A stretch of 62,092 nucleotides of DNA, taken from contig CAKMJZ010000020.1 in NCBI GenBank assembly GCA_927435855.1, forward strand, positions 1 through 62,092, written 5' to 3'. The stretch is from an uncultured Erysipelotrichaceae bacterium. GTDB lineage: Bacteria; Bacillota_I; Bacilli_A; Erysipelotrichales; Erysipelotrichaceae. Below, one piece after another: positions 9,887 to 62,092 of this stretch (position 1 is its first letter; each line of letters starts with the position of its first letter). The notes under the pieces are model-generated. The model was given only the letters and a program-made list of their open reading frames with translations. It did no database searches and had not been told where the DNA came from. The position numbers and the translations under genes were made by a program.

Positions 9887-9887
9887 A

Positions 9888-21291: not shown

Positions 21292-21301
21292 TCAACTGAG
21301 C

Positions 21302-22100: not shown

Positions 22101-22946
22101 ATGACACAGAATCTAAAATTATTTTCTGCAGAGATTAGACTTGCTACATGCAAAATGTTATTACACAGAGGATTTGGTCATTTAGGAGGATCATTGTCAA
22201 TAGTAGAGACTTTATCTGTTCTTTTCGGTGAGGTAATGAATGTAAGACCGACAGAACCAAGCTGGCGGGATAGAGATTTTTTTGTTTTGTCCAAAGGTCA
22301 TGCAGCGCCGGCTTACTATAGTACCTTAGCATTAAAAGGTTATTTTCCTATGGAAATGTTAGATACGCTTAATGACAATGGAACAAACCTCCCGTCTCAT
22401 CCAGATCGCTTAAAAGTGCCCGGAGTAGACACGACAACGGGTTCATTAGGACAAGGCATTTCTATGGCCGTTGGAATAGCCAAGTCCTTTAAAATCAGTA
22501 AGAAAGACAACCGAGTTTTCTGCATCGTTGGGGATGGAGAGTGTAATGAAGGTCAAGTTTGGGAAGCCTTTCAGTTTGCTGCCCATAGTAAACTCAATAA
22601 TCTAATAATTTTTATTGATGAAAACTTGAAGCAACTCGATGGATTTACTACTGAAATATTGAATCCGTTTGACCTAAAAGAAAAAGCAGCCGCATTCGGC
22701 TTGTATGCAGTTCGAGCAGATGGATCAAATGAAAAAGAAATATTAGATGCTATTAATGAATGCAAAGAAAAAGATACAACCGGTTGCATAATCCTAAGTA
22801 CTGTTAAGGGGCAAGGCATCAAATATTTCGAGGACATGATGAGTAATCATCATGTAAAACTCATCGGTGAAAGTATAAATGAGATGACTAAAGCAATTGA
22901 AGAGCTCGAGGCTAAAATAGAGCTAATGAAAGGAAAATCTCAATGA
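22101..22946 (+). CDS. Transketolase, N-terminal (thiamine diphosphate-binding) subunit
   Basis: A 281-residue subunit equal to the first half of transketolase: LSKGHAAPAYYSTLA, SLGQGISMAVGIA and the ThDP/Mg2+ motif GDGECNEGQVWEAF...NLIIFIDEN. It pairs with the next gene, which it overlaps by ATGA. It moves two-carbon units between sugar phosphates. Split transketolases occur in archaea, Firmicutes and in special sugar routes (apulose-4-phosphate, sulfofructose). The pair sits inside the sugar operon, so it is likely specialised. Confidence 0.92.
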   Translation: MTQNLKLFSAEIRLATCKMLLHRGFGHLGGSLSIVETLSVLFGEVMNVRPTEPSWRDRDFFVLSKGHAAPAYYSTLALKGYFPMEMLDTLNDNGTNLPSHPDRLKVPGVDTTTGSLGQGISMAVGIAKSFKISKKDNRVFCIVGDGECNEGQVWEAFQFAAHSKLNNLIIFIDENLKQLDGFTTEILNPFDLKEKAAAFGLYAVRADGSNEKEILDAINECKEKDTTGCIILSTVKGQGIKYFEDMMSNHHVKLIGESINEMTKAIEELEAKIELMKGKSQ

Positions 22947-43075: not shown

Positions 43076-43588
43076 ATGAACCCTATCATCACATTGACCA
43101 TGGAAAATGGCAATGAAATCAAGATCGAACTTTTCCCCGAAGTGGCACCAAATACCGTCAACAATTTTATTTCCCTTGTATCCAAGAGCTATTATGATGG
43201 ACTTATTTTCCATCGCGTTATTCCCGGATTTATGATTCAAGGCGGATGTCCGACGGGTACCGGGATGGGTAATCCCGGATATTCTATAGCGGGAGAATTT
43301 ACATCCAATGGATTTAAAAACGAACTTAAACACAAACGTGGCATCATCTCGATGGCTCGTTCCTCACTGCCCAACAGTGCCGGATCACAGTTTTTCTTGA
43401 TGGTCGCGGATTCACCACATCTGGATGGCCAGTACGCATCTTTTGGACAGGTTATTTCCGGAATGGAAGAGGCTGATCGGATCGTTAAAGTAAAAAGTTT
43501 CCGTGATCGTCCGACTGAGGATCAACGCATCCTAAAGGCTACCGTTGAAACCTTTGATATCGAATACTCTGAAGTTGTCAAAGTTTAA
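43076..43588 (+). CDS. Cyclophilin-type peptidyl-prolyl isomerase
   Basis: A 170-residue cytoplasmic cyclophilin: PNTVNNFISLV, FHRVIPGFMIQGG with the catalytic Arg and Phe, GTGMGNPGYSIAGEF, RGIISMARSSLPNSAGSQFFLMV and FGQVISGMEEAD. It speeds proline isomerisation in protein folding. Start chosen at the ATG after AGAAGGAG, giving no signal peptide. Confidence 0.95.
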   Translation: MNPIITLTMENGNEIKIELFPEVAPNTVNNFISLVSKSYYDGLIFHRVIPGFMIQGGCPTGTGMGNPGYSIAGEFTSNGFKNELKHKRGIISMARSSLPNSAGSQFFLMVADSPHLDGQYASFGQVISGMEEADRIVKVKSFRDRPTEDQRILKATVETFDIEYSEVVKV

Positions 43589-43608
43589 CCTTCGCAAGAA
43601 GGTTTTTC
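43587..43608 (+). terminator. Weak terminator after the cyclophilin gene
   Basis: aacctt and aaggtt with loop cgcaag, followed by TTTTCTTT. Confidence 0.6.
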
Positions 43609-43633
43609 TTTAGGGTTAAACGGATGACTTTAA

Positions 43634-43673
43634 TGATAGAAAATGATAGAATATGATTGAAAATGATAGTTAA
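43634..43673 (+). repeat. Four 10-bp phased direct repeats upstream of the second sugar island
   Basis: Units tgatagaaaa, tgatagaata, tgattgaaaa and a weaker tgatagttaa follow one another at exactly 10 bp. They lie 29 bases before the first gene of the island and are on the same strand as it. Together with the array at 10711-10750 they give the consensus TGRTWGAWAW, fitting a DeoR-type operator. Confidence 0.7.
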
Positions 43674-43701: not shown

Positions 43702-44472
43702 ATGAGCACCGTATATAACGAATACTTATCCGCATCTTATAAAATCATGAAAGACATCACGACTTCTCAAATGGAAACCATTGAGCAGGTCTCCCAAATT
43801 TTCGCCAATTGTATTGCCAATGAGGGCTTAGTTCATGTCTATGGATCAGGTCACTCACGCATGGCCGTTGAAGAAGTGTTCCCGCGTTATGGCAGTTTCC
43901 CGGGATTCCACACGATCGTCGAACTGTCGATGACCTTCCACAATCAAGTCGTTGGGGCTAATGGTCAACGCCAGGCCATGTTTATCGAAAACGTAGAAGG
44001 ACTGGCAGAACAAATTCTCAATAACTTCATATTTAAACCGCAAGATGTCTTTTTGTTATTCTCAACCAGTGGCGTCGGGAATGTCGTCGTCGAAATGGCG
44101 ATGGGAGCTAAAAAGCGCGGGATGAAAGTCATTGCGATCACCGCGGTAGAAAATTGTAAGATGACCCCACATAAGCACTCATCGGGTTCCAAACTGATTG
44201 ATATCGCCGATATTTTGATTGATACCTGTGTTCCCATGGGGGATGCGGTCGTGCATGTCCCTAACCTGATCACTCCGGTCGGACCTACCTCTACCATCGC
44301 AAACACGCTGATCGTCAATTTGATTAAAGTTCGTGTAGCTGAGTTATTAACACAGGCCGGTCAGCCACCATTGGTATTGACCAGTCCGGTGTTCGTTGGA
44401 AAAGAAGCGTCCCGCCAGCTTTTTGAAGACACGTATAACGACTACCGTCGTCGGGTTAACCGAGTATTATGA
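43702..44472 (+). CDS. SIS-domain phosphosugar-binding protein
   Basis: A 256-residue single SIS domain of the UPF0309-like group: VHVYGSGHSRMAVEEVFPRYG (residues 42-62) and FLLFSTSGVGNVVVEMAM form the phosphosugar site, with the later GPTSTIANTLIVNL helix. The family isomerises or hydrolyses phosphosugars, often amino sugars. It is the first gene of the eight-gene run, with AAAGGAG upstream and ATGA overlap into the next. A paralogue is at 59459. Confidence 0.82.
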   Translation: MSTVYNEYLSASYKIMKDITTSQMETIEQVSQIFANCIANEGLVHVYGSGHSRMAVEEVFPRYGSFPGFHTIVELSMTFHNQVVGANGQRQAMFIENVEGLAEQILNNFIFKPQDVFLLFSTSGVGNVVVEMAMGAKKRGMKVIAITAVENCKMTPHKHSSGSKLIDIADILIDTCVPMGDAVVHVPNLITPVGPTSTIANTLIVNLIKVRVAELLTQAGQPPLVLTSPVFVGKEASRQLFEDTYNDYRRRVNRVL

Positions 44473-45248
44473 AAACGCCCAGAATTATAGTCATAACCGG
44501 AGCCTTAGGCGGAATTGGGTTGGCATCAACAGAAGTATTCACTCGTGATCATGACATCGTTGTGGGCATTGATATCAAAGATAAAAATGACAATTTAGTC
44601 TTAGAAACGCAGAATAAATATGGAAAATTATTTTCCTACTATCCAGCGGACTGTACACAGGAAGATCAGGTAAAATCAGTGATAGAAAGCATAGTGTCCG
44701 ACTATGGAAAAATCGATGTTCTATTCAATATTATAGGTGGTAGCGGTCGGCGATTCGGTGATGGACCGATCCATACCGTCTCTTTAGAAGCGTACCACCA
44801 AACCTTAAATCTAAACCTGACATCGCAGTTTCTACTATCGAAATATGTTGTGATTCAGATGCTAAAACAGAACTATGGAAACATCATCAATACCGGATCA
44901 GTTCTTGGCATGGTAGGGGGCAATGAGATGTTTTCAACCGTGACCTATGCGGCCTCAAAAGCTGCGATTATTGGTATGTCTCGATCGATGGCTATGGCTT
45001 ATGCGAAAAATAACATTCGCGTCAACGTCATCTCACCAGGTCTGATTGAATCCAATATGACCCAACGGGCTCAAAACAATGATGAAATCATTGCGTATAT
45101 CGATGAAAAACAACCCATCTATTATGGACGTCATAGACTCGGAAATCCGATGTCCATCGCTTTAGCCGCTCGATTTTTAGCGGATAGTGAAGCCGATTTT
45201 GTAACCGGAATCAATCTTCCGGTCGATGGAGGTTGGACAGCACAATGA
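44469..45248 (+). CDS. SDR-family sugar dehydrogenase
   Basis: A 259-residue classical SDR: ITGALGGIGLAST, DVLFNIIGGSG, NTGSVLGM with the Ser, TYAASKAAIIGM with Tyr and Lys, and FVTGINLPVDGGWTAQ at the end. Start and stop overlap both neighbours by ATGA. As part of the operon it could oxidise a sugar hydroxyl or the anomeric carbon. Cofactor is probably NAD (acidic residue in VVGIDIKD). Confidence 0.88.
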   Translation: MKTPRIIVITGALGGIGLASTEVFTRDHDIVVGIDIKDKNDNLVLETQNKYGKLFSYYPADCTQEDQVKSVIESIVSDYGKIDVLFNIIGGSGRRFGDGPIHTVSLEAYHQTLNLNLTSQFLLSKYVVIQMLKQNYGNIINTGSVLGMVGGNEMFSTVTYAASKAAIIGMSRSMAMAYAKNNIRVNVISPGLIESNMTQRAQNNDEIIAYIDEKQPIYYGRHRLGNPMSIALAARFLADSEADFVTGINLPVDGGWTAQ

Positions 45249-46543
45249 ACTATGAAAAACAAATTAATAACAAAATAAAAACAGAGGTCCTTGTTATCGG
45301 AGGGGGTAGTGCCGGATCAATGGCTGCTATTGCATCAGGTAAAGAAGGACGCAAAACGCTTTTGGTTGAACGGTATGGCTTTCTGGGCGGAACAAGCACC
45401 ACGATTTTAGATACTTTCTATGGATTTTATATTCCAGGAACAAGCAATCGTAAGGTCGTCGGGGGTATCCCGGATATCCTTCTTGAAAAATTACATCAAC
45501 GAAAGGCTATGTTGCTACGACCAAATACTTATGGTGCCGGAACCGGGGTTACCTATGATCCTGAAATATTGAAAGTTGTTTGGGAAGAGCTGGTAAATGA
45601 AGCGAATGTGGATATTCTTTTGCACAGTTTTGTTGCGGATGTCGTGATGGAAGGCAAAAAAATCAGGGGGGTCATTGTTGTTAATAAGTCTGGATTCACA
45701 CTCGTCGAAGCGGATGTTGTTATTGATGCTTCCGGAGACGCCGATGTAACCGCACTTGCCGGCTATCCATATGATGGCATTGGCAGTCACATTCCCGTGC
45801 AATCTTTGACCACAACCTTTAGAGTGGGTAATGTTGATGAGCAACGCACGAAACTATTTAACAAAAATCAAATGTGGGATTGGATGAAGGAAGCCAATCA
45901 AAGCGGGAAGTACTTTTTACCTCGTGAAGAAGGCAGTGTACATATTACGACTTTACCGGGAGTGATGGCGACCAATATGGTTCGCTTAGCAATACCGGAT
46001 CCGACCAATATCATTGAATTATCCAAAGCCGAAATCCTCGGACGCAGACAGGCATTGGAGTATTTTCGCTTTATGAAAGACTATCTGCCAGGCTATGAGA
46101 ATTCTGTTTTCTTAAACTTCTCGACTCAAATCGGCGTTCGTGAAACCCGAAGGATCATCGGTGAGTACACATTAACCAAAGAAGATGTTCTTGAGGCACG
46201 TAAATTTGAGGATGCTATCGTATTATGTGGGGCTCCGATTGAAGATCATCACAATCAGACTGGAACCAAGTGGGAGTATTTACCTGCGGATGAAACGTAT
46301 CAAGTTCCGTATCGATGTCTGATTCCTAAGGACAGCGTCAATCTTTTGGTCGCCGGACGATGCTTATCCGCAACTCATGATGCACATGCTTCAGTTCGAA
46401 GCATGGGTCAGTGCATGGGTATGGGGCAAGCCGCCGGAATTGCCGCAAGTCTGGCTTTTGAAAACAACTGTCGCCCTTTGGATATAAGTATTGAGATGTT
46501 ACAAGATAAACTGCGCAGTTATGGCGCAATTTTGGAGGGATGA
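45245..46543 (+). CDS. FAD-dependent oxidoreductase (FAD_oxidored type)
   Basis: A 432-residue flavoprotein. The FAD-binding loop VLVIGGGSAGSMAAIASGKEG is at about 16-36, YGFLGGTST and VVIDASGDADVTALAGYP and the C-terminal LVAGRCLSATHDAHASVRSMGQCMGMGQAAGIAA are typical of the PF12831-like group. These are poorly known; some oxidise sugar-like or alcohol groups. It overlaps the SDR by ATGA and the PTE-like gene by one base, so it belongs to the same route. No covalent-flavin or membrane signal is seen. Confidence 0.85.
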   Translation: MNYEKQINNKIKTEVLVIGGGSAGSMAAIASGKEGRKTLLVERYGFLGGTSTTILDTFYGFYIPGTSNRKVVGGIPDILLEKLHQRKAMLLRPNTYGAGTGVTYDPEILKVVWEELVNEANVDILLHSFVADVVMEGKKIRGVIVVNKSGFTLVEADVVIDASGDADVTALAGYPYDGIGSHIPVQSLTTTFRVGNVDEQRTKLFNKNQMWDWMKEANQSGKYFLPREEGSVHITTLPGVMATNMVRLAIPDPTNIIELSKAEILGRRQALEYFRFMKDYLPGYENSVFLNFSTQIGVRETRRIIGEYTLTKEDVLEARKFEDAIVLCGAPIEDHHNQTGTKWEYLPADETYQVPYRCLIPKDSVNLLVAGRCLSATHDAHASVRSMGQCMGMGQAAGIAASLAFENNCRPLDISIEMLQDKLRSYGAILEG

Positions 46544-47499
46544 TGAAAAATAAAATAATGACAGTTACAGGACGGATCGCTCCTGAACAATTAAATAAAA
46601 CCTATGGTCACGAACATTTGTATACAACGGCGACCGAAAAAGTCGTAGCTGAAAATGAGAAGATGGCACTAATTGACACCGATAAAATTGCGGTGGATTT
46701 ACGCTTGTTTAAGGAGTTGGGTGGTAACTGTATCGTTGAAGTGACGACGATGGATTATGGAAGAGATGTATTAAAACTTAAAGAATTATCTAAGAAGAGT
46801 GGCGTTTACATCATTGCTTCGGGAGGATTTAATAAAGGAACCTATAATCGACCCTATCTGGAGAATAAAGATGTTACGGTAGTTGCGGATATGCTGATTC
46901 GTGAGATTCGCGAAGGTGTTGGTGATACCGGGATTTCCCCGGGAATATTAAAAATCGGTACAAGCCAGGATGTCATTCACCCTTGGGAGCTTGTTGGTAT
47001 TAAGGCAGTGTCGTTGGCACACAAGGCCACCGGGATTCCCATTACGACTCACACCCAAAGTGGAAGTATGGCCAAAGAACAGTTAGACGAATTTGAAGCG
47101 ATGGGTGTTGATTTATCAAAAGTACTGATCGGACACATGGATCAGTTAGATGATTTTGACTTTCATGTAAGGTGCATCAAGTGCGGTGCTTATCTGGGCT
47201 ATGATTCATTGCCTAAAGAGAAATATGGCACACAAAAACGAGCCATTGACTTTATATGTCGGTTATCACAACAGAACTTACATACCCATATTCTTATCAG
47301 CGGTGATTATGCCCGTCAGGACTATTTTAAAGGATATGGCGGCACACTGGGATTAGACTATATTCTAACGACTTTTCAAGAAAACTTTTTAAGTGAGTGT
47401 ACTGTTCGAGGGCTTGATGGCAAGAAAATCCTTTTTGATCTTCTTATCGAAAATCCTCGTCGACTACTGACATTCAAGGAGGATGAATATGGACATTAA
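46543..47499 (+). CDS. Phosphotriesterase-like lactonase
   Basis: A 318-residue binuclear-metal amidohydrolase of the phosphotriesterase-like group. Metal ligands are YGHEHLY (HxH), the carboxylated Lys in ILKIGTS, His in PITTHTQSG and IGHMDQ, and Asp in LISGDYAR. Relatives in Firmicutes and mycoplasmas hydrolyse phosphorylated sugar lactones. It stands between dehydrogenases and an aldolase, so opening a sugar lactone is the best guess. Start at the ATG overlapping the previous stop, after GGAGGG. Confidence 0.88.
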   Translation: MKNKIMTVTGRIAPEQLNKTYGHEHLYTTATEKVVAENEKMALIDTDKIAVDLRLFKELGGNCIVEVTTMDYGRDVLKLKELSKKSGVYIIASGGFNKGTYNRPYLENKDVTVVADMLIREIREGVGDTGISPGILKIGTSQDVIHPWELVGIKAVSLAHKATGIPITTHTQSGSMAKEQLDEFEAMGVDLSKVLIGHMDQLDDFDFHVRCIKCGAYLGYDSLPKEKYGTQKRAIDFICRLSQQNLHTHILISGDYARQDYFKGYGGTLGLDYILTTFQENFLSECTVRGLDGKKILFDLLIENPRRLLTFKEDEYGH

Positions 47500-48127
47500 A
47501 AAACAACTGCTTGATGGCGGTGTGATTGCGGTCATCCGTCATGCCAATAAAGAAAATATTGTGCCTGTAGTACAAGCGCTACGAGCAGGTGGGATCATCG
47601 GTATTGAAATTACCGTCGAAAACGACGGTGGTTTTGAGGCGATTTCCGCATGTCGGGATGCGTTTGACGACATTGCTCTTGGTGCAGGAACGGTTCTTAC
47701 GGTACAAAGTGCGAAACGTGCAATTGAAAGTGGCGCAACTTTCATTTTTTCGCCGATTCTCAGTGAAGAAGTGGTAAAATATAGTAAAGAACAAGGTGTT
47801 TTATCCATTCCCGGCTGTTATAGTCCAACAGAGATCTTCCATGCCATCCAATGGGGTGCTGATATGGTCAAAATCTTTCCGGCTGTCAATTTGGGCACCT
47901 CTTATATAAAAAACATTCGGGTACCGCTACCCTTTATTCCTATGGTTGTTACCGGAGGAATCGACTTAAATAATTTAGGAGATTTTATTAAAGCTTCAGC
48001 AGATGCGGTTGGCATCGGCAGTCAGTTGGTCGATATGAAGAGATTATCTGAGGAAGGATATCTTGATTTGATTACCGAAAATTCCCGGAAGTTTACGGAG
48101 GCGGTAAGGATGGCAAGAGCAAAATAG
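47489..48127 (+). CDS. KDPG/KHG-type aldolase
   Basis: A 212-residue class I aldolase of the 2-keto-3-deoxy-phosphogluconate type. GGIIGIEITVENDGG has the catalytic Glu, GAGTVLT the phosphate loop and ADMVKIFPA the Schiff-base Lys; TGGIDLNN closes the site. It cleaves a 2-keto-3-deoxy sugar acid (phosphate) to pyruvate and an aldehyde. AAGGAGG at 47476-47482 sets the start at 47489 and not 47483. It overlaps the PTE-like gene. Confidence 0.9.
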   Translation: MDIKKQLLDGGVIAVIRHANKENIVPVVQALRAGGIIGIEITVENDGGFEAISACRDAFDDIALGAGTVLTVQSAKRAIESGATFIFSPILSEEVVKYSKEQGVLSIPGCYSPTEIFHAIQWGADMVKIFPAVNLGTSYIKNIRVPLPFIPMVVTGGIDLNNLGDFIKASADAVGIGSQLVDMKRLSEEGYLDLITENSRKFTEAVRMARAK

Positions 48128-48151
48128 AAAGTACTTCTAGGGAGGTTACTT

Positions 48152-49339
48152 ATGGCTTATACGATCATTAAGGCTAAGCGCATCGTCAGTGGTGATGGAT
48201 TGGATATCTTCGAAGGATATCTGGTTTTAAAAGACGGATTGGTTGAAAAAGTTGCGGATATGGATGATGGAGAAGTGAAAAGTCTGTTTGCTCAGGAAGA
48301 TACGGAAATTATCATTGAAGATGATATGACGATCGTTCCAGGGATGTTTGATATTCACACCCATGGTGCTATGGGCGTTGATTTCATCGATGTCGATGAA
48401 GAGAAACTGAAAATCGTGGGTCAGCGTTACCTTATGGAAGGTGTCACCGGATTTTGTACTTCGACTATGGTTTTGGTGAGAGAAAAGGAAAAAGAACTGC
48501 TTAAGAAGTTTGGAAGTTTACCTCAAATTTCCGCTCCGCGCTGGTTGGGTGTTCACCTAGAAGGCCCGCATATGAATGAGAAATATCATGCGATGATGGA
48601 TCCAAGATATCTGAGAAAACCTTCAATAGAAGAGCTTTTGGAAAATATTGAACTGACCAACCATCGGCTTTTGATGATAACCATGGCACCCGAACTTGAG
48701 GGAGCTAAAGAGTTTATCGAGGCTTGTGTTGAGAATAATGTTGTTGTCATGCTTGCGCATAGTAATGCCACAAGCAAACAAACTACGGAAGCCCTGACTT
48801 GGGGTGTCTCCGGCTTTACGCATTTATATAATGCCATGTCACAACACACCCATCGCAATCCGGGGATGGTCACGGCAGCACTGCTTGACGATAACACATT
48901 TAAGGAACTGATCGTCGATGGTTATCATATCGATGAAGATGTTATAAAACTGACCTATAAGATTTTGGGCAAGGATCAAATCATCCTTGTGACCGATGCC
49001 ATGCCAGGAAAAGGGTTAGGTGATGGGGAATATGAATTTGGCAAGTTGCCGTGTGTTATCAAGGATAATAAAGCCTTTGAGAAAGCATCGGGACGGATCG
49101 CCGGTTCAACCTTAGGAATGAATGATGCCATGCGCAATGTCATGGCGTTTACCGGCTGTTCACTTTCGGATGCCGTGGTTATGGCATGTGTCAATCCGGC
49201 AAAGTTATTGAAACTAGACAATAGATATGGATCACTAAGCAAAGGAAAAGCCGCAGATTTTGTCCTTCTCGACGAAGATTTGAATGTATTTGCTACATTC
49301 ATTGATGCCAACTGCGTCTATCGACAAGCTCATGAGTAA
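48152..49339 (+). CDS. nagA: N-acetylglucosamine-6-phosphate deacetylase
   Basis: A 395-residue amidohydrolase: FDIHTHGAMGVDF (HxH), HLEGPHMN with the metal-binding Glu, MLAHSNAT and FTHLYNAM with His ligands, and LVTDAMPGKG with the catalytic Asp. It removes acetate from GlcNAc-6-phosphate in the cytoplasm, and so fits with NanE downstream. No glucosamine-6-phosphate deaminase (nagB) is in the window. AGGGAGG precedes the start. It overlaps the next gene by 8 bases. Confidence 0.93.
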   Translation: MAYTIIKAKRIVSGDGLDIFEGYLVLKDGLVEKVADMDDGEVKSLFAQEDTEIIIEDDMTIVPGMFDIHTHGAMGVDFIDVDEEKLKIVGQRYLMEGVTGFCTSTMVLVREKEKELLKKFGSLPQISAPRWLGVHLEGPHMNEKYHAMMDPRYLRKPSIEELLENIELTNHRLLMITMAPELEGAKEFIEACVENNVVVMLAHSNATSKQTTEALTWGVSGFTHLYNAMSQHTHRNPGMVTAALLDDNTFKELIVDGYHIDEDVIKLTYKILGKDQIILVTDAMPGKGLGDGEYEFGKLPCVIKDNKAFEKASGRIAGSTLGMNDAMRNVMAFTGCSLSDAVVMACVNPAKLLKLDNRYGSLSKGKAADFVLLDEDLNVFATFIDANCVYRQAHE

Positions 49340-50264
49340 GCTGTATAAAATCGATCCGGTATTCAACTATCGGATATGGGGTGGTAACCGCCTTAAAGAA
49401 AAATATGGATATCAAAGTGATTTACCTAATATTGGTGAGTGTTATCATGTGATCGCTATGCCTGGTCATTTGGATTGTTGGGTGCCGGATGCCGATTTGC
49501 CGTTATCTCAGTTTTATAATGAGAACCGCGATCTTTTCGCTTGTACAAAAGCGGAGATGCCCGTACGAACCGCATCAGCAAATCCAATCGCACCGATGTC
49601 GATCCAACTTCATCCGGACAATGAATATGCAATGAAACATGAAGGCAAAAAAGGCAAGCCGGATGGCGTTTTCTTCATCGAAGGCGAAGGCGAAATGGTT
49701 TTAGGGCATAGTGCCAAAACCAAAGATGAGTTTGTAAGAATGATCAATGAAGGTGAGTGGGACCAACTTGTTCGTAACGTTCGGGTCAAACAGGGGGATT
49801 TCGTGAATGTTCCATTTGGTACATTGCATGCTTTTGGGGCGGGATTTCTGTTGATTGAATTTACTCAAAACGCTGATTTGACGTATCGGTTGTATGATTA
49901 TGATCGAATTGATCCCATTACGAAAAAGTTAAGGACCTTACATACTCAACAAGTGTTGGATAATGTGAAAATCCCCAACGGAGATACCAAAATCGTTGAT
50001 TTGACCAAAGAGATTCTTGGCGGCTATACGTATACTTTATTTCATGATGAGCCCAATGTATACACAGCTGGAAGATATGATGTTTGGCATCAAGCCGATA
50101 TTCAACGCGATGAGTTTTATTTCCTGACTTGCATCGAAGGATCGGGATTTATCGATGGACATCCGCTTTACGGTGGAGATACATGGTTTGTACCGGCAAA
50201 ATTTGGATCGGTCAATGTTTCAGGACCTGTAGATCTGGTTTTTGTGTCTTTGATTGAGAGGTAG
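49332..50264 (+). CDS. Class I PMI-like cupin protein
   Basis: A 310-residue PMI-type protein starting MSKLYKIDPVFNYRIWGGNRL, with MSIQLHPDNEY and GTLHAFGAG (His ligands) and TYRLYDYDR. Where other copies have Glu in EAWY or ESWY, this has GKPDGVFFIE, so the Glu metal ligand appears to be Asp or missing. It may bind sugar phosphate with altered activity. Its start is inside the end of nagA. Confidence 0.85.
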   Translation: MSKLYKIDPVFNYRIWGGNRLKEKYGYQSDLPNIGECYHVIAMPGHLDCWVPDADLPLSQFYNENRDLFACTKAEMPVRTASANPIAPMSIQLHPDNEYAMKHEGKKGKPDGVFFIEGEGEMVLGHSAKTKDEFVRMINEGEWDQLVRNVRVKQGDFVNVPFGTLHAFGAGFLLIEFTQNADLTYRLYDYDRIDPITKKLRTLHTQQVLDNVKIPNGDTKIVDLTKEILGGYTYTLFHDEPNVYTAGRYDVWHQADIQRDEFYFLTCIEGSGFIDGHPLYGGDTWFVPAKFGSVNVSGPVDLVFVSLIER

Positions 50265-50267
50265 ATC

Positions 50268-50969
50268 ATGAAACTTATAAAGCCTTTAAATAAATACTTT
50301 GATCATACGATCCTAAAACCATTTGCATCATCATCGGATATCGACAAAGTCATTGATGAATGTATTCGCTATGATTTTCGGATGATTGCGATCAATTCCG
50401 TTCAAGTTCGTTATTGCAAAGAAAAACTGAAAGATTTTGATGTTCATGTTGGAGCGGCGATCGGGTTTCCTTTAGGTCAAACTACGATTAGAACCAAAGT
50501 TTTTGAAACGCAAAACGCCATTGATGATGGTTGTGATGAGATTGATTATGTCGTAAATTTAACTGAAGTAAAAAATGGAAATTGGAATTATGTCGAGAGA
50601 GAAATGAAGACTATTGTCGAAGTGTGTAAAGAACAAGGTATTATAAGTAAGGTTATTTTTGAAAACTGCTATTTGAATCAACGAGAAATCACGGCATTGG
50701 CTCAAATTGCCCGTGTTGTCGGTCCGGATTATATAAAAACATCCACCGGCTTTGGTACCGGTGGAGCAACTGTAGAAGATGTGCGTTTGATGAAAGAATT
50801 TGCCGGAGACAATGTTAAAGTGAAGGCGGCTGGGGGTATTCGGGATTTGAAAACGGCAATGGCCATGATTGAAGCCGGAGCATCACGCATTGGGTCCAGT
50901 GCCGGATGTTTAATCATGGATGAATATAACGGTTTAAAGCAAAGACTTGAAATAGTCGATACTTACTAA
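50268..50969 (+). CDS. deoC: Deoxyribose-phosphate aldolase
   Basis: A 233-residue class I aldolase: FDHTILKPFAS at the start, GFPLGQTTIRTK, YIKTSTGFGTGGATVEDV with the Schiff-base Lys and VKAAGGIRDLKTA with the second Lys. It splits 2-deoxyribose-5-phosphate into acetaldehyde and glyceraldehyde-3-phosphate, or a related substrate. It ends the operon 3 bases after the PMI-like gene; its last 36 bases overlap the end of the converging TIM-barrel gene. Confidence 0.93.
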   Translation: MKLIKPLNKYFDHTILKPFASSSDIDKVIDECIRYDFRMIAINSVQVRYCKEKLKDFDVHVGAAIGFPLGQTTIRTKVFETQNAIDDGCDEIDYVVNLTEVKNGNWNYVEREMKTIVEVCKEQGIISKVIFENCYLNQREITALAQIARVVGPDYIKTSTGFGTGGATVEDVRLMKEFAGDNVKVKAAGGIRDLKTAMAMIEAGASRIGSSAGCLIMDEYNGLKQRLEIVDTY

Positions 50970-51806
50970 TGTTTCAATATCATCGACTTCGGGTTCAAGT
51001 GAAAACATGGCGGGATGCGAAGTCTTTTTCATGAAATCTACGATTTGAGGATAGGGTAAATCCCCTTTACCGACGGCTACATGTTGATACGGTTTAGCCA
51101 ATCCTTCAACATATCGATAGTCCTTAACGTGTATATGACCAATCAGAGGAGCGATAAATTCCATCTCCTCCAGTATTGAGAGTTTTTTGTACATAGTAGC
51201 TAAACGCTTATGATCCGCACGGACACTGTTGGCAGGATCCCAAAGCAGACCTAACCACGGACTATCGATGGTTTTAACGACAAAGTTCGTCATCTCTCCA
51301 CGAGGTAAGTGAGTATGAGGGCAGTTCTCAATCAAAATCCGCTTGTTCGCGTTCTTTGCGAAAGGTACAAGTCTTGTAAAATGATCGAGGATTTCTCTTT
51401 GATCGTCCAGTACACCGATGATTTGGCGGTTATCGGGAGCACGAAAGGGAAAAGCACGAATCGTAGGACAGTCAAGTGCAACAGCGATTTCCAATGCCCG
51501 CTTGGCTGCGTCCATATGGTCTTTCGTTTTTCCTTTGACCGCATAGAATGAATCACTAAAAGAGGAAATGGTATCGTTGGGATATAACTTAGCCATAAAG
51601 AAAATCGTTGATGCCAGATTTATGACTTTTAAATGATACTTGTTCAAGATTTCGATAACTTTTTTTACTTCAGAAGAACTAAGATCCTCCACAGTTTTAC
51701 CCCAAAGTGAATGGATTTCGACAAATTCAAATCCATGATGTTTGGCTATAGCGCAAGCTTTTTCAAAATCTTGACTTAATTGATCTGTAATAATACTTAT
51801 AGACAT
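50934..51806 (-). CDS. TIM-barrel sugar-phosphate isomerase/epimerase
   Basis: A 290-residue AP-endonuclease-2-type barrel: GFEFVEIHSLWG, RILIENCPHTHLPRG, LLWDPANSVRADH, IGHIHVKDYRYV and MFSLEPEVDDIE hold the metal ligands. Family members isomerise or epimerise ketoses and their phosphates. It is alone on the minus strand, divergent from the PMI gene at 51886. Its end overlaps deoC. Substrate unknown. Confidence 0.85.
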   Translation of the reverse strand: MSISIITDQLSQDFEKACAIAKHHGFEFVEIHSLWGKTVEDLSSSEVKKVIEILNKYHLKVINLASTIFFMAKLYPNDTISSFSDSFYAVKGKTKDHMDAAKRALEIAVALDCPTIRAFPFRAPDNRQIIGVLDDQREILDHFTRLVPFAKNANKRILIENCPHTHLPRGEMTNFVVKTIDSPWLGLLWDPANSVRADHKRLATMYKKLSILEEMEFIAPLIGHIHVKDYRYVEGLAKPYQHVAVGKGDLPYPQIVDFMKKTSHPAMFSLEPEVDDIETLVSIDYFKSLL

Positions 51807-52821: not shown

Positions 52822-53505
52822 TTAGCGAATGGAAAGTGCACTGAGCTGATTGTCTGCTTGGGTTTCAATGGTGTATTGAGCCAAAACCGACTTCAATAAG
52901 TATACTTTATGGATGATCTGAAGGGAGAGCGAATGCTCTTCTTTTCTTAAGTGACGAGCAGCCTCACTATTCAACTGTACAGCCTGAATTTTCTTGAAAT
53001 CGTGACTGATGACATAATTGCGATTTTCGATGTATTTCATGACTGAACCATACAAGTCCGATTCATTAAAGTCCTCAAACAAACTGACGGGCATCCAAGT
53101 TTCTTCCAGTGCGACGGGGATATCGTCAACCAATCGGATACGACGGAAATGATATAATTTTTGACCTTCGAAAAGATGAAACATTCTTCTCATTTCATCA
53201 CTACCTTCGACGATGTCAAATGCCAAAACTATTGAAGACAAGTTTTTGTTGGCGTAGCGATCGGAAAGGGTTGTCAGGTGTTGTTCTTTATAGAATTCAG
53301 GAGGATTGACATAGTAACCTGATCCTTGTCGGGAGTGTATATAACCTTTGTCTTTAAGTAGTGATAATGCTTTACGAATGGTAACGCGAGACGCTGAAAA
53401 CAGGCGAGTTAAGTACAATTCGCCTTCAAGCACACCCCATGACCGGTATTCACCGGCTTCTATCATAGCAATCAACTGTTGAGCAATATCCACATATTTT
53501 GACAT
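52822..53505 (-). CDS. GntR/HutC-family transcriptional regulator
   Basis: A 227-residue regulator: the GntR winged helix (EGELYLTRLFSASRVTIRKALSLLKDKGYIHSRQGSGYYV, about 27-66) and the C-terminal UTRA ligand domain (FHLFEGQKLYHFRRIRLVDDIPVALEETWMP...). HutC-type proteins answer to phosphosugars, glucosamine-6-phosphate and the like. It is the last gene of the minus-strand run with the glycyl radical enzyme. The inverted repeats at 56771-56856 are possible binding sites. Confidence 0.9.
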   Translation of the reverse strand: MSKYVDIAQQLIAMIEAGEYRSWGVLEGELYLTRLFSASRVTIRKALSLLKDKGYIHSRQGSGYYVNPPEFYKEQHLTTLSDRYANKNLSSIVLAFDIVEGSDEMRRMFHLFEGQKLYHFRRIRLVDDIPVALEETWMPVSLFEDFNESDLYGSVMKYIENRNYVISHDFKKIQAVQLNSEAARHLRKEEHSLSLQIIHKVYLLKSVLAQYTIETQADNQLSALSIR

Positions 53506-53512: not shown

Positions 53513-54421
53513 TCAAATGAAGATTAGTTCATTTTCCATGGTTACATTGCGAATCTGTCTGATTCGAATTTCATTTCTCCACTGCTCTTTTTTTAAAAAA
53601 TCCGCAACCGTGAAGAACTCACGGTCATTGAGTAATTTGAATTGTTGTTTTTTACGTAATTTATGATAGGATAACAGATTCGTTTCAATAATATTATCAT
53701 ACTCATTAACCAGATTTGCAAGCATGTCAAATAAAGCGGAGTCATCATTTATGTCTTCAATTAATGGAACACGCAAGATGACCGGTTTATTTCTTAGAAG
53801 TTCAAGCATGACCTTTGGATCAAGGGTCTGACGGATATACTTTTGATAGATCTCATCCTTGGCGGCTTTGATATCGAGAAGATAGAGATCGATTAAGTCA
53901 AATGTCTTGGGTAACAATCCACCTGGGTCATATCCGGAAATATCCAAGGTCAGATGAAGATGGTATTCTTTTAGTTTTTTTGCCAAAGGCTCAATAAATG
54001 ACCACTGATTTAATGCTTCACCTCCGGAAAATGTTACACCGCCACCAGACTCGCGATAATAATCTATATCTTTTAGAATGATAGATACGATCTCATCTAC
54101 ACTTTTCTCTTCGCCCAATACACTAAAACAGCCCTGAGGACAAACAGAAACTAAATCCACACTCTGATCGTGGATATTCATATCAACTTCGGCTTTATTG
54201 TTTATCATTGAAATGCCAGTTCCGTTAACATGATCAAAACACTTTCGACAGCCGTCACAACGAGTTGGATCGTAGCTCAACTGACGATAGCTTGCGATCG
54301 ATTCCGGATTATGGCACCATGCGCATCTTAGCCCGCAGCCTTTGAAAAATACGGTTGTCCGGATACCGGGTCCGTCGTTGACTGAAAAGCGTTGAATGTC
54401 AAATATCAGTCCTTTAGTCAT
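53513..54421 (-). CDS. Glycyl radical enzyme activase
   Basis: A 302-residue radical SAM protein that would install the glycyl radical on the enzyme encoded upstream. It has GPGIRTTVFFKGCG, CxxxCxxC at 29/33/36 for the SAM cluster, and SGGEALNQ. Between them is a ferredoxin-like insertion with CDGCRKC (55, 58, 61) and CPQGC (94, 98), five Cys where two-cluster relatives have eight, so probably only one extra cluster. It overlaps the end of the enzyme gene by 8 bases, so it is translationally coupled. Confidence 0.92.
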   Translation of the reverse strand: MTKGLIFDIQRFSVNDGPGIRTTVFFKGCGLRCAWCHNPESIASYRQLSYDPTRCDGCRKCFDHVNGTGISMINNKAEVDMNIHDQSVDLVSVCPQGCFSVLGEEKSVDEIVSIILKDIDYYRESGGGVTFSGGEALNQWSFIEPLAKKLKEYHLHLTLDISGYDPGGLLPKTFDLIDLYLLDIKAAKDEIYQKYIRQTLDPKVMLELLRNKPVILRVPLIEDINDDSALFDMLANLVNEYDNIIETNLLSYHKLRKKQQFKLLNDREFFTVADFLKKEQWRNEIRIRQIRNVTMENELIFI

Positions 54422-56699
54422 TGCATGTTCTTTCCATGATTTCTTTTTGAACGTCTTTATCCAAATTAACAAAGCGCGCACTGAAACCGCCGACCCGCAC
54501 AATCAAATCGCGATGTCTTTCGGGATGATGATAAGCATCGATTAGGTCGGCTTGATTGACGATGTTGACCATTAGTTGTGGCCCGCCTTTTTTGAAATAG
54601 GTTTTAAATAGAGCTTTGATTTTTACTCTTTCCTGATTAAACATCCGGCCAGAGAACTTGATGTTTTGTACAGTGCCGGCATTAATATCGGCACGTATTT
54701 TACACAGTGAGTTCAACATGGCCGTTGGTCCGTTGATGTCCGCACCGCTTTGTGGGTTGTTGGCATTGGACATATACATTCCGGCAATTCGGCCATCCGG
54801 TGAACTGGCGGTTGCTCGTCCCCATTCGGTATTGACTTGATTGTTGATCACGACGACCAACCAACTGTCCAATCCGACTTTCTCAGCCTGGTCAGCCACA
54901 TGTTGACAAGTAAATTCGTGCAACCAGATCGCCAGATTATCGACTTCTTCGATATCATTACCAAATTTCGGTAAATCAATCATCTTTTGACGTAAATCTT
55001 CGTGTCCATCGAAGTCGTGAGCAAGAATGTCCTGTAGCTGAGGCATGGTCAATACGTTGTCATCGAACACGAGTTTCTTAATAGCATATAGCGAATCCGC
55101 CGCATTGATATTGCCATACATTTCATTGGTTCCACCCAAATGGAAGACACCGCCATCCAACACCATTTTTCCGCGATTGATACAATCGTCGGTTAGGATA
55201 CTGGTATAAATGAATCCGACTTGTTGGTTCATGACTTGGTATGATTGAGCATGAGAGTGAGCACCGGATTCTATGTAGTAGGAAAGCTGTTGTTTATACT
55301 GATCAAGAAATTCCTCAAAAGTAGAAATTTCATTCATTTTTTTTAGTTTTAGTGGCCCAAGTTTATATTGATAATCCCATTGATCGACTCCGTCATGTAT
55401 CAACAATGTTAAACTTTTTAGCAGATTGATACAAACGTTGGGAGTTCCGACGCCTTTACCGGCAAGAACAAACTCACCACAGCCAAATGGAACGTAGTTG
55501 CAAGCTGTATTATAGTCTACATGCATCATTTTCATGACCGCATCAATATTGACATCATCATTATATAGAATAGGATAAGTGATTCCGGTGGAAATACTGT
55601 CCATAGCCTTTTCGAATATTTCCGGATCCATTCCATCGTAAAAGCGTAAGGTAAACTGCGGTTCAACCATTTGAGCGCGTTTGGTAGCTTCAATGGCTAA
55701 CTTACAGAAGACATCCGCATTTTTCTCATTGCGTCTGCCTCTTCCACCGACAATGACACGACCGTTAACATTGGTGCGCTTGACTTCAATCAGTCGCCAC
55801 TGCGAAAGTATAAGCTCAATGGCTTCTTCTTCACTTAAATGACCGGAAGTTAAGTCATTGACCAGGTAGTCACCTAAATAGTCATCCATACGACCGTAAT
55901 TGACGACACCGGCCATGGATGAATACAACCATGACAATTGCATCGCGCCAAGCATTGTTGAAGGTCGTTCACTACGGATTTCCCTAAGAGCATCAAGCAA
56001 ATTAACAAGCTGTTGTTTTCTCTTTTTACTCATTGACGTGGTCAACTTTGTTTCAACTTCATCAATATGATGATCGACAACTTTTTGAAGTAATTTCAGT
56101 GCTTCGATCATACTTTCATATTCAACAACAGATGAAGGGTTTATAGTTAACTTGGATTCAATAAGATTGATCAATCCAACGATTCCATGATCTAGTAATT
56201 TATTATAGTCCAGATACATCCCGCTGAAACGAGCGGTAATGATGACCGGATAGTGCACATCCACAAATGGTCCACATACGTTTTCTAGAAGGTTATCCTT
56301 ATAGAAAATCTCACGGGTATCATGTTGTTTCCAGTATCCAATTAACTCATCGATCGTGACATAATATTTTTCATCCATACGACTTTTCATTTTTGCCATT
56401 TGATCAAATCGACAGTAGTGTCCTGGAGCACCAACGGAAGTTACCGACCCAAAGCCGATGGGTAAGGCATCATATCTGCCAACCATCAAGTCACCTTCGT
56501 ACATCGGGCGAAACACAGCTGGAAATAACACGTTCAAACAAGCGATCTCTCGCTCCAATCTCTGTGAATTGCTAAATCGTTTGTGCGTATCGGTATAACG
56601 AACCATGATTTCCAATTGTTCTACATCTTTTTTATGTAGTGGTTCCTTGGGTGCCACGGCTACATTCTGTTCATTTTTCTTAAGAGTTCGTTCGATCAT
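54414..56699 (-). CDS. Glycyl radical enzyme of unknown substrate
   Basis: A 761-residue glycyl radical enzyme of the pyruvate formate-lyase/diol dehydratase superfamily. The radical site RVGGFSARF has the Gly at 738, 24 residues from the end. The active Cys is C407 in PFGCGEF, where lyases such as choline TMA-lyase and glycerol dehydratase have GCVE, while PFL has a Cys pair. The following Glu (E409) is retained, so a dehydratase or lyase type is likely. It is the first gene of the unit with activase and GntR. Neighbours are sugar-phosphate genes, so the substrate may be a sugar or sugar acid. Confidence 0.93.
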   Translation of the reverse strand: MIERTLKKNEQNVAVAPKEPLHKKDVEQLEIMVRYTDTHKRFSNSQRLEREIACLNVLFPAVFRPMYEGDLMVGRYDALPIGFGSVTSVGAPGHYCRFDQMAKMKSRMDEKYYVTIDELIGYWKQHDTREIFYKDNLLENVCGPFVDVHYPVIITARFSGMYLDYNKLLDHGIVGLINLIESKLTINPSSVVEYESMIEALKLLQKVVDHHIDEVETKLTTSMSKKRKQQLVNLLDALREIRSERPSTMLGAMQLSWLYSSMAGVVNYGRMDDYLGDYLVNDLTSGHLSEEEAIELILSQWRLIEVKRTNVNGRVIVGGRGRRNEKNADVFCKLAIEATKRAQMVEPQFTLRFYDGMDPEIFEKAMDSISTGITYPILYNDDVNIDAVMKMMHVDYNTACNYVPFGCGEFVLAGKGVGTPNVCINLLKSLTLLIHDGVDQWDYQYKLGPLKLKKMNEISTFEEFLDQYKQQLSYYIESGAHSHAQSYQVMNQQVGFIYTSILTDDCINRGKMVLDGGVFHLGGTNEMYGNINAADSLYAIKKLVFDDNVLTMPQLQDILAHDFDGHEDLRQKMIDLPKFGNDIEEVDNLAIWLHEFTCQHVADQAEKVGLDSWLVVVINNQVNTEWGRATASSPDGRIAGMYMSNANNPQSGADINGPTAMLNSLCKIRADINAGTVQNIKFSGRMFNQERVKIKALFKTYFKKGGPQLMVNIVNQADLIDAYHHPERHRDLIVRVGGFSARFVNLDKDVQKEIMERTCND

Positions 56700-58749: not shown

Positions 58750-58764
58750 TCTGTGGGGGATTAT

Positions 58765-59469
58765 ATGAACATTGATGCTCTTAAGCAACAACTCAAAGGA
58801 AAACTGATTGTATCTTGTCAGACTTTTGAGGGTGAACCCATTCACGGTGAGGGTATCGTTGTAAAAATGGCGCTATCTGCGAAATGGGCAGATGCAGCTG
58901 GTATACGTGCTAATGAACCACAAAATGTCGCAGATATTAAAGCGGCTGTAAACCTTCCGGTTATTGGCATTTGGAAAGTCGTGAAAACTGGATGTGATGT
59001 GTATATCACTCCGACGATGGAAGCGGTAGATGCATTAGTTGAAGCCGGAAGTGATATCGTAGCACTTGATGCGACCGATCGGATATCTCATGATGGACGC
59101 AAGGCGTATGAATTGATTAGAGATATTAAGGTGAAATATCCTTTGTTGCCAGTTATGGCCGATATATCGACTTTTGAAGAAGGAGTCAATGCCATTGATT
59201 ATGGTGCGGATTTCGTCGGTACGACATTGAGTGGTTATACCACGCATTCTAAAAAGACCGATGGACCGAATTTTGATTTGATTGAAAAACTGTGCGAACG
59301 CTTTGAGGACAAAGTCATTGCCGAGGGCAAGGTTAACTGTCCCCAAGAGGCGGTTCGCTGTATAAAACTGGGTGCATTGTGTGTCGTGGTTGGCGGTGCC
59401 ATCACGCGTCCGCACTTGACTGCCCAACGCTTTGTTTCATTTTTGAAAGAGGTGGAAGATGATGCATGA
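58765..59469 (+). CDS. nanE: N-acetylmannosamine-6-phosphate 2-epimerase
   Basis: A 234-residue TIM barrel: LKGKLIVSCQTFEGEPIH at the start, AAGIRANEP, GIWKV, DATDR, MADIS and VIAEGKVNCPQEAVR and VVVGGAITRP at the end. It turns ManNAc-6-phosphate into GlcNAc-6-phosphate for NagA (48152). GGGGGA precedes the start. With the PTS at 60609 this points to N-acetylmannosamine or a similar amino sugar as carbon source. No sialic acid lyase is seen. Confidence 0.93.
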   Translation: MNIDALKQQLKGKLIVSCQTFEGEPIHGEGIVVKMALSAKWADAAGIRANEPQNVADIKAAVNLPVIGIWKVVKTGCDVYITPTMEAVDALVEAGSDIVALDATDRISHDGRKAYELIRDIKVKYPLLPVMADISTFEEGVNAIDYGADFVGTTLSGYTTHSKKTDGPNFDLIEKLCERFEDKVIAEGKVNCPQEAVRCIKLGALCVVVGGAITRPHLTAQRFVSFLKEVEDDA

Positions 59470-60181
59470 TGTAAAAAAGTATGTTCAATCGACGATTGAT
59501 GGAATTTATACCACTCAAATCGATAATATCGCATTGGCTGCTCAGTTGACTGCGGATGCTTTTGAAAAGGGAAGTAAGATATTTGTGACTGGCAGCGGAC
59601 ATTCACATACATTCAGTGAAGAACTGTATGGTCGTGCCGGCGGATTGGCTTTCTTTGTGCCCATTCTTACCAGTGAATTAACGTTGGTCGAACATCCGAC
59701 TAAAAGTACATTTGTTGAACGGTTACCTGGTTATGCCGCAATCTTATTTGAATTATATGGTTGTAAAAAAGATGATGTCATCTTAATCGCATCGAATTCG
59801 GGGCGTAATGCCTATCCGGTAGAAATGGCGTTATGTGCCAAGGAAGCCGGCTTAAAAGTTATTGCTGTGACCAATGTAAAGCATTCGATGGCAACGGCAT
59901 CCCGTCATCCTAGCGGTAAACGCTTGCTTGAGTTGGCTGATGTCGTGATTGATAACTGTGGAGATTTGGGTGATGCCGCTTATCATTTGGATGGTGTTGA
60001 AGCAGCGGTAGGCCCGACTTCATCGGTGTCTAATTCGATCATTGCCTTACTTTATACGGTGGAGGTTGCGCGCTTGTTACAACAGCGCGGAGTCGAAGCG
60101 CCGGTATTTGTCAGTGCCAATGTCGATGGTGGTTTTGAGAAAAACGAGAAATACATGCGTCAGTATGCGCGCTTGTATTAA
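59459..60181 (+). CDS. SIS-domain phosphosugar-binding protein, second copy
   Basis: A 240-residue SIS domain protein: IFVTGSGHSHTFSEELYGRAGG and VILIASNSGRNAYPVEMAL form the phosphosugar site, and VGPTSSVSNSIIALL matches the GPTSTIANTLIV of the protein at 43702. It overlaps the end of nanE by 11 bases and GAGGTGG precedes the start; ATG at 59462 is an alternative. The two paralogues lie at opposite ends of the island. It may isomerise or hydrolyse a phosphosugar. Confidence 0.82.
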   Translation: MMHDVKKYVQSTIDGIYTTQIDNIALAAQLTADAFEKGSKIFVTGSGHSHTFSEELYGRAGGLAFFVPILTSELTLVEHPTKSTFVERLPGYAAILFELYGCKKDDVILIASNSGRNAYPVEMALCAKEAGLKVIAVTNVKHSMATASRHPSGKRLLELADVVIDNCGDLGDAAYHLDGVEAAVGPTSSVSNSIIALLYTVEVARLLQQRGVEAPVFVSANVDGGFEKNEKYMRQYARLY

Positions 60182-60608: not shown

Positions 60609-61037
60609 ATGAAATATGTGGTTATGGTCAGTCATGGCGAATTCGCTCATGGATTACGCTCGGCTATACGCATGATGACCGGTGAGCGAGATGATATGTT
60701 CAGTGTCTGCTTAAAAGAGGACATGGGCACCAATCAATTCGCAGAAGAATTTACAAAGCTTGTCGAACCGTTTAACAGTGATGACGAAGTGTTGCTGTTC
60801 AGTGACATTCTAAGCGGTTCCCCATTTACGACATCGTTGGATATTCTCAATCAAAAAGGTTTATTGGATAAGTCCATGGTCTTTACCGGTATGAATATGC
60901 CTATGGTATTGACGGCTGTTTTGATGAAGGACAACATCGAGGGGGAAGACTTAAAGGAAGCAATCTTAAGTGAAGGCAAACTGGCTGTAACATTCTTTGA
61001 CATAAATGCTGTCAAAGAAACCGAAGAAATTATCTAG
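60609..61037 (+). CDS. PTS mannose-family EIIA component
   Basis: A 142-residue EIIA of the mannose/sorbose/N-acetylgalactosamine family: VVMVSHGEFAHGLRSAI with the phosphorylated His9, then LLFSDILSGSPFTTSL. It accepts phosphate from HPr and passes it to EIIB. AAAGGAG precedes the start. Confidence 0.93.
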   Translation: MKYVVMVSHGEFAHGLRSAIRMMTGERDDMFSVCLKEDMGTNQFAEEFTKLVEPFNSDDEVLLFSDILSGSPFTTSLDILNQKGLLDKSMVFTGMNMPMVLTAVLMKDNIEGEDLKEAILSEGKLAVTFFDINAVKETEEII

Positions 61038-61047
61038 GAGGAAAAAC

Positions 61048-61542
61048 ATGGCAATTTCATTTATTCGAGTCGATGACCGTATCGTTCATGGACAAATCAC
61101 GACCCGCTGGTCACAGGAGTATCCGTGTGATGCTATCGTGGCAGTCAATGACTTGGCGGCTACCAATCCAGTTATTAAGGCGGCTTTCTTGTCGTCCATC
61201 AACAAACCTTTGTACATTTGGACGTATGCCGAATGGAAAGAAAAATGTGACAAAGTTCTTCAAAGCCAAAAGAATTATTTCTTGATTACTAAAGATCCGA
61301 TATTGATGGCTAAAATATTAGTCGATGATGGTTTTGATTCAGGTAGACGTGAAGTATGTGTCGGTCCGGCGAATGATCGTCCGGGTGCCGTAAAATTGGG
61401 TAATAATCAGTCGCTGATGCAAAATGAGGCAGAAGCTTTTGAGAAGATTCATCAGGCTGGTTATAAGATTTTGTTTGCATTGGTCAGGGAAGATGCCATT
61501 GGCTACTGGCCGAAATTCCGTGGATTGTTCGGATACAAATAG
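61048..61542 (+). CDS. PTS mannose-family EIIB component
   Basis: A 164-residue EIIB: ISFIRVDDRIVHGQITTRW with the phosphorylated His15, and VGPANDRPGAVKLGNN in the middle. It passes phosphate to the sugar during entry. It starts 10 bases after the EIIA stop with AGGAGG. Confidence 0.94.
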   Translation: MAISFIRVDDRIVHGQITTRWSQEYPCDAIVAVNDLAATNPVIKAAFLSSINKPLYIWTYAEWKEKCDKVLQSQKNYFLITKDPILMAKILVDDGFDSGRREVCVGPANDRPGAVKLGNNQSLMQNEAEAFEKIHQAGYKILFALVREDAIGYWPKFRGLFGYK

Positions 61543-61594
61543 GAGTAATTTGTAACCGTTCATCATAAAAAAACCTAAGGAAAGGGAGGATTTT

Positions 61595-62092
61595 ATGACT
61601 ATCAATATTTTTCAGGCCGTTCTTCTAGCATTTATGGCCTCAATGACGTCGGTAATCGGTGCTTTAGGTACTACGTATTCGTGGTATACATTGAGCCGTC
61701 CGTTAGTCGCGTCATTGTTCGTCGGTATCATTCTTGGTGACATTTCGACATCAATTATGGTCGGTGCAGCTATTCAGATCGTTTACATTGCTTTGGTTAC
61801 TCCGGGCGGAACCGTTTCGGCTGACTTACGTGCTGTCAGTTACATCGGTATTCCTTTAGCAGTTATCGCTGTTAACGGCGCTGGGCTTGATCCTGCTTCG
61901 GTACAAGGTGCAGGGCTTGCAGTTTCTATCGGTGCTTTAGTTGGTACAGTCGGAACCGTTATGTTCTACTCTACCGCTACGATGAACCTTATTTGGCAAC
62001 AATGGGGTTGGAAATCGATCGACAGTCTTGGATACAAGAACATTTACTTAACGAACTTCGTACTCCCGTTAATTTCTCACTTCTTGATCGCA
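61595..62092 (+). CDS. PTS mannose-family EIIC component, N-terminal part
   Basis: The first 166 residues of a mannose-family EIIC permease: FQAVLLAFMASMTSVIGAL, WYTLSRPLVASLFVGIILGD, MVGAAIQIVYIALVTPGGTVSADL with GAAIQ and PGG motifs. It is cut by the window end, and EIID should follow. GGGAGG precedes the start. It forms the sugar channel; the specificity is not visible, but NanE and NagA nearby favour an N-acetyl amino sugar. Confidence 0.93.
   Translation, partial: MTINIFQAVLLAFMASMTSVIGALGTTYSWYTLSRPLVASLFVGIILGDISTSIMVGAAIQIVYIALVTPGGTVSADLRAVSYIGIPLAVIAVNGAGLDPASVQGAGLAVSIGALVGTVGTVMFYSTATMNLIWQQWGWKSIDSLGYKNIYLTNFVLPLISHFLIA

Follow-up and report, generated by a model that had tools for sequence, protein, structure and literature searches.

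The operon considered here has its nearest described counterparts in the Entner-Doudoroff pathway (Zwf/Pgl/Edd/Eda), which combines oxidation at C1, hydrolysis of a lactone, dehydration and class I aldol cleavage of 2-keto-3-deoxy-6-phosphogluconate (KDPG), and in NagS (SCO4393), an enzyme of Streptomyces. NagS, described in 2025, is a dehydratase of N-acetylglucosamine 6-phosphate (GlcNAc-6P) that yields 6P-chromogen I, which NagA deacetylates; it also takes N-acetylmannosamine 6-phosphate (ManNAc-6P), requires H53, R64, E94 and D179 for activity, and has been described as limited to the Streptomycetaceae (PMC12680351). We analyzed a 62,092-nucleotide stretch of DNA from an uncultured Erysipelotrichaceae bacterium (contig CAKMJZ010000020.1 of a metagenome-assembled genome; hereafter the window), in which eight adjoining genes at 43702-50969 open with a five-gene core encoding a NagS-related protein (SIS1), two oxidoreductases, a metal-dependent hydrolase and a KDPG-type aldolase. 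The core may specify a dehydration-first variant of an Entner-Doudoroff-like route, a reading that we put forward as possible and not quite probable.

All eight genes lie on the forward strand. The core comprises SIS1, a UPF0309 or 'sugar isomerase domain' protein (43702-44472; NF002805, 270 bits against a cut-off of 135); a short-chain dehydrogenase/reductase (SDR), an NAD(P)-dependent oxidoreductase (44469-45248; PF13561); an FAD_oxidored flavoprotein (45233-46543; PF12831, 392 bits); a hydrolase of the phosphotriesterase (PTE) family (46540-47499; PF02126, 170 bits); and a KDPG/KHG-type class I aldolase (47483-48127; TIGR01182, 168.2 bits, cut-off 156). Downstream follow the GlcNAc-6P deacetylase NagA (48152-49339; TIGR00221, 281 bits, cut-off 226), the type I phosphomannose isomerase (PMI)-like protein PMI2 (49332-50264, the listed open reading frame starting at 49284; TIGR00218, 97 bits, under the cut-off of 116) and a deoxyribose-phosphate aldolase-like DeoC (50268-50969; TIGR00126, 230 bits). 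Reading frames and family matches agree with a first-pass annotation of the window, which had recognized these eight genes, NagA, PMI and DeoC downstream of the other five, and overlaps of a few bases among those five. The overlaps measure 4-17 bases, and the intergenic distances from SIS1 to DeoC are, in order, -4, -16, -4, -17, +24, -56 and +3.

The core is conserved across phyla, a result of which we are nearly certain. Comparison of gene neighborhoods, which the first-pass annotation had proposed as a check, finds SIS, SDR, FAD and PTE or creatininase genes together in Bacillota, Deinococcota and Bacteroidota. Close homologues of the FAD protein span 46-94% identity, and beside those of at least 46% lie a SIS gene (16/16), an SDR gene (15/16) and a PTE or creatininase gene (15/16); the single shortfall is a 3.4-kb contig, and all 15 loci with flanks are complete. 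Beside FAD paralogues at 34-39% identity, neither SIS nor PTE was found at any of 13 loci, four of which reach only about 1.5 kb per side. Five of the 16 loci come from one genus, so that the sample represents about eleven independent lineages in the three phyla. The genome-contig scan used strict peptide patterns and gave 13 loci, and the distribution of the core is therefore a lower bound. Our literature search on this gene set returned nothing relevant.

Within the genus, the FAD gene was found in six of seven genomes and the block is syntenic in six, with the order and strand of SIS-SDR-FAD-PTE-KDPG-NagA-PMI2-DeoC constant in every contig that reaches the region. Where the contig permits, these genes are followed by TIM, PMI3, GntR, the activase of a glycyl radical enzyme (GRE), the GRE itself, PMI4, NanE, SIS2 and a four-subunit Aga-like phosphotransferase system (PTS). 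In a second Erysipelotrichaceae genus (loci L055 and L056) the core precedes PHP and C_GCAxxG genes, a NagA-PMI2 fusion (in L055; the same 710-aa reading frame occurs in L056), PMI3, GntR, PMI4, NanE and the PTS; GRE and DeoC were not seen in this operon run. Orders elsewhere are GntR-SIS-FAD-PTE-TIM-GFO/IDH-SDR-ROK in Paenibacillus selenitireducens, FGGY-SDR-FAD-PTE-KDPG-SIS in Deinococcus aetherius, and GntR-SIS-SDR-FAD-ROK-creatininase-KDPG in Persicobacter, where a creatininase-family hydrolase takes the place of PTE. Three further genomes of the order of P. selenitireducens keep SIS, PTE, SDR and FAD together, and Spirosoma and Haliscomenobacter carry SDR, SIS, FAD and PTE with GFO/IDH. 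Each of the three phyla has lineages whose operon includes the KDPG aldolase, namely Erysipelotrichaceae, Deinococcus and Persicobacter. NagA, PMI and DeoC accompany the core in Erysipelotrichaceae only. As a side observation, a 743-771-aa GH94-like gene lies near the core operons of Paenibacillaceae (L105-L107), which might point to a glycoside feeding them.

SIS1 links the core to NagS. It belongs to the UPF0309/SIS family, and its nearest solved relatives in a PDB sequence search are 3cvj and 9eol, the latter being NagS itself (E 2e-27). The four residues essential in NagS are invariant in SIS1 and in all SIS proteins aligned. SIS1 also retains the phosphate serines, which in the core SIS proteins are either kept or replaced by Thr. 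Since 6-phosphogluconate binds NagS as an inhibitor (PMC12680351), its pocket can accommodate C6 acid phosphates. Overall identity is about 26%, however, and SIS1 has a short insertion (VVGANGQRQAM region); NagS, moreover, acts in a toxicity checkpoint, whereas the SIS1 gene lies in a catabolic operon. The core SIS proteins share the family and catalytic residues of NagS and, we infer, act on another substrate.

The remaining core enzymes retain the hallmarks of their families. The SDR carries TGALGGIG and YAASK motifs, and a GDGP motif after a conserved Arg is common to all ten core SDRs aligned. The flavoprotein has a GGGSAG motif and is 73-94% identical in five Bacillota relatives; no near solved relative of this PF12831 protein was found by sequence, and a literature search linking PF12831 with sugars returned nothing relevant. 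A first structural model was too poor (pLDDT 50); a second, built with 13 sequences (pLDDT 70, pTM 0.76), matches generic FAD flavoproteins only, at low TM-score, and thus offers no hint of function. The best PDB sequence match of the PTE protein is 3pnz (199 bits), which we take to be a Listeria PTE-family phospho-lactonase, as presumably are Mycoplasma MS53_0025/MAG_6390. The window protein belongs to the same fold family, keeps the metal ligands and appears to retain much of the phosphate pocket (four of five phosphate-binding positions of the Mycoplasma structure), but falls below the phospho-furanose lactonase cut-off (NF045706, 106.9 of 630 bits); we propose that it is a putative phospho-lactonase. 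In the aldolase, both the Schiff-base Lys (VKIFP, at 129) and the catalytic Glu (IEIT, at 41) are present, and the KDPG aldolase 1wa3 is among its PDB matches. Position R49 (N here) was dropped as a substrate marker; it varies even among functional KDPG aldolases.

The classical route cannot supply the aldolase with substrate, because Edd/IlvD (PF00920) is absent from all eight core-carrying Erysipelotrichaceae genomes, two of them at least 98% complete; the same model found its target in all 14 control genomes. The first-pass annotation had seen no dehydratase in the run, which holds for the classical families and, for Edd/IlvD, extends to the whole genome. Enolase-superfamily matches (PF13378) in these genomes are weak, at most 45 bits, and mostly ~430-aa frames that look like enolase itself; the search covered these two families and not others such as UxuA. 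Mannonate dehydratase genes do occur several kb downstream in Persicobacter, in an apparently separate glucuronate cluster.

On the reading that we favor, a hexose-6-phosphate would be delivered by the PTS in Erysipelotrichaceae and by ROK or FGGY kinases elsewhere. SIS1 would open this sugar phosphate (probably not GlcNAc-6P) and remove water across C2/C3, giving a 3-deoxy-2-oxo (or 2,3-ene) hexose-6-phosphate, which the SDR, the flavoprotein or both would oxidize at C1 to a phospho-lactone. The PTE protein, or the creatininase-family hydrolase in Persicobacter, would then hydrolyze the lactone, yielding KDPG or a stereoisomer, which the aldolase would split into pyruvate and glyceraldehyde-3-phosphate. 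The core in Erysipelotrichaceae is joined by a set of amino-sugar genes (NagA, PMI-like proteins, NanE, SIS2 and the Aga-like PTS). Such a route resembles the Entner-Doudoroff pathway in its C1 oxidation, lactone hydrolysis, water loss and aldol cleavage, but differs in lacking Edd genome-wide, in using a PTE-family protein rather than Pgl and an SDR plus flavoprotein rather than Zwf, and in having a SIS gene at the head of the operon. It would constitute an undescribed catabolic pathway in three phyla, in which a NagS-like enzyme of the SIS superfamily stands in for the iron-sulfur or enolase-type dehydratase of sugar acids and feeds a PTE or creatininase lactonase, a proposal that we regard as tentative and a little less likely to be right than wrong. 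Part of what the first-pass annotation envisaged is retained here: oxidation, lactone opening and cleavage are supported by a core co-conserved in three phyla and an aldolase present in lineages of each. Its deacetylation step is doubtful as part of the core, since NagA is confined to the Erysipelotrichaceae loci, and its assignment of the GRE is not supported, as discussed below.

Several observations weigh against this reading. The KDPG aldolase is missing from the operons of Paenibacillus, Spirosoma and Haliscomenobacter; both oxidoreductases are always kept, though the proposed route needs one oxidation; and some PTE members have an incomplete phosphate pocket, with fewer positions kept than in the window protein. 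The role of SIS1 as the operon's dehydratase is drawn from homology only, and we consider it as apt to be wrong as right. Two NagS substrate residues are not matched in SIS1 (S91 to M, N228 to V), for which reason SIS1 was not filed as NagS. A UPF0309 protein of P. selenitireducens, 25.7% identical to NagS, was inactive on GlcNAc-6P (Li et al., PMC12680351). Three paralogues in that species exceed the family cut-off, and because BLAST identity to NagS agrees with the published value only for the paralogue of the FAD operon (25.2%, against 33.2 and 31.1% for the others), the protein found inactive can almost certainly be equated with the core SIS; at 73% identity to SIS1, it is likely an SIS1 orthologue. 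Together with the changes at S91 and N228, this indicates that GlcNAc-6P is probably not the substrate of SIS1, and it lowered our estimate of SIS1 as a true NagS.

UPF0309 SIS genes also occur in other settings. In the genome to which the window belongs, a core-clade SIS shares an operon with DeoC, a RACo corrinoid activator, URO-D methyltransferase-like genes and a second GRE with its activase (L152, contig C29, 8939-17950), a set that recurs in similar form with a B12-binding protein at L103/L104. Another adjoins an apparent ascorbate-type PTS (L153, contig C70, 7890-10748), and at L047 PTE, creatininase, SIS and KDPG aldolase genes lie by a similar PTS without any oxidoreductase.

The genes that flank the core might point to an amino sugar as substrate. 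GlcNAc-6P or ManNAc-6P could be converted by SIS2 or SIS1 to 6P-chromogen I, oxidized at C1, opened by PTE and deacetylated by NagA; the resulting enamine would lose ammonia to give KDPG for cleavage. Two genera have NagA, NanE and the Aga-like PTS beside the core, and one of them has SIS2 there as well; SIS2, the second UPF0309 protein (59459-60181, forward strand), has an active site nearer to that of NagS than SIS1 has, keeping N228 and every catalytic residue apart from S91, which is T; and the known activities of NagS on both amino-sugar phosphates and of NagA on 6P-chromogen I supply the chemistry (PMC12680351). We nevertheless consider this unlikely: Paenibacillus, Deinococcus and Bacteroidota have the core without NagA or NanE, the probable SIS1 orthologue showed no activity on GlcNAc-6P, and that of a C. 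amylolyticum homologue with 33% identity to NagS was negligible (PMC12680351), and NagB is present, so that the usual amino-sugar route exists and the operon is not simply its substitute. Dehydration might instead be dispensed with altogether. SIS domains are mostly isomerases, and were SIS1 one of them, the SDR and flavoprotein could oxidize C1 and C2, PTE open the lactone and the aldolase split a 2-keto-aldonate-6-phosphate to hydroxypyruvate and glyceraldehyde-3-phosphate, which would account both for the two retained oxidoreductases and for the lack of a classical dehydratase. KDPG-type aldolases, however, normally use 3-deoxy substrates, and no hydroxypyruvate isomerase or reductase was recognized in the operon, leaving this quite improbable in our estimation. 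More loosely, the phosphosugar may be metabolized by steps beyond what the family names convey, such as epimerization or elimination driven by FAD, with the aldolase acting on another 2-keto-4-hydroxy acid. The flavoprotein, with its generic fold matches and lack of a near solved relative, leaves room for such chemistry, and the use of creatininase for PTE in Persicobacter suggests that the hydrolyzed bond may not be a simple lactone; yet the best PTE relative and the metal-site residues are consistent with lactone hydrolysis and the aldolase exceeds the KDPG/KHG family cut-off, and we rate this reading as rather unlikely.

The first-pass annotation had instead proposed the nearby GRE (54414-56699, reverse strand; TIGR01774 family) as a candidate for the missing sugar-acid dehydratase. 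Its C-x-E (GCGE at 406) and glycyl (RVGGF at 735) motifs are of the eliminase type and are shared, along with a family match over ~600 aa, with diol-dehydratase-like GREs (glycerol dehydratase 1r8w, YbiW and PflD), although the window GRE is far below every equivalog cut-off. Each of the seven family genomes that contain the FAD core has a close GRE homologue too, though these represent only two genera. Against the proposal, P. selenitireducens carries the core and lacks a GRE homologue, and 28 of the 35 family genomes with GRE homologues (of 146) are without the FAD core. Among the 20 loci of relatives whose flanks reach far enough, 18 have NanE within 2.5 kb of the GRE on the same strand, and in the second Erysipelotrichaceae genus the GRE is ~33 kb from the core. 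Linkage and distribution thus place the GRE with NanE, and on these grounds we rejected it as the core dehydratase, a role that now seems very remote; the SIS gene of the operon is the better candidate. The NanE-linked GRE subfamily (the window gene and L111-L133) shows 42-51% identity across genera, usually with an activase and often with a regulator-like gene. It is a candidate uncharacterized enzyme acting on ManNAc-6P or GlcNAc-6P; a literature search on NanE-linked glycyl radical enzymes gave nothing relevant and no characterized equivalent.

Within the operon, the FAD gene more likely starts at ATG 45245 than at 45233, because the Paenibacillus homologue begins there and the ATGA overlaps the SDR stop, and PMI2 more likely starts at ATG 49332 than at 49284; with these starts, the SDR/FAD and NagA/PMI overlaps are 4 and 8 bases. 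Upstream of SIS1, a terminator-like hairpin (43587-43604) follows a cyclophilin gene and precedes an extended -10-like site (43624-43652), but in promoter and terminator scans such sites were not commoner than chance. Beyond DeoC lie a convergent TIM-barrel gene with only a weak match to L-ribulose-5-phosphate 3-epimerase (50937-51806), a GntR-family regulator that is kept in the L055 and L056 clusters (52822-53505, reverse strand), the putative ManNAc-6P 2-epimerase NanE (58753-59469, forward; NF002231, 271 bits, over cut-off) and the IIA, IIB and IIC genes of the mannose-family (Aga-like) PTS (60609-62092, forward), with IID next in a sister genome. The window holds five type I PMI-like genes (at 17219, 35710, 49284, 51886 and 56938), of which the last encodes a 603-aa protein matched by no Pfam or NCBIfam model. 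A second sugar cluster (8357-25020), as read from translations, includes an FGGY-like kinase, a DeoR-type regulator, an aldolase, a sugar ABC transporter, a LarA-like 490-aa protein, a split transketolase and GFO/IDH.

The proposed route would give a concrete role to three poorly named families, the UPF0309 SIS proteins, the PF12831 flavoproteins and the PTE homologues, and the analysis sets the NanE-linked glycyl radical enzyme apart as a separate entity. If the proposal is true, the dehydration chemistry of NagS would extend beyond the Streptomycetaceae, to catabolism in other phyla.

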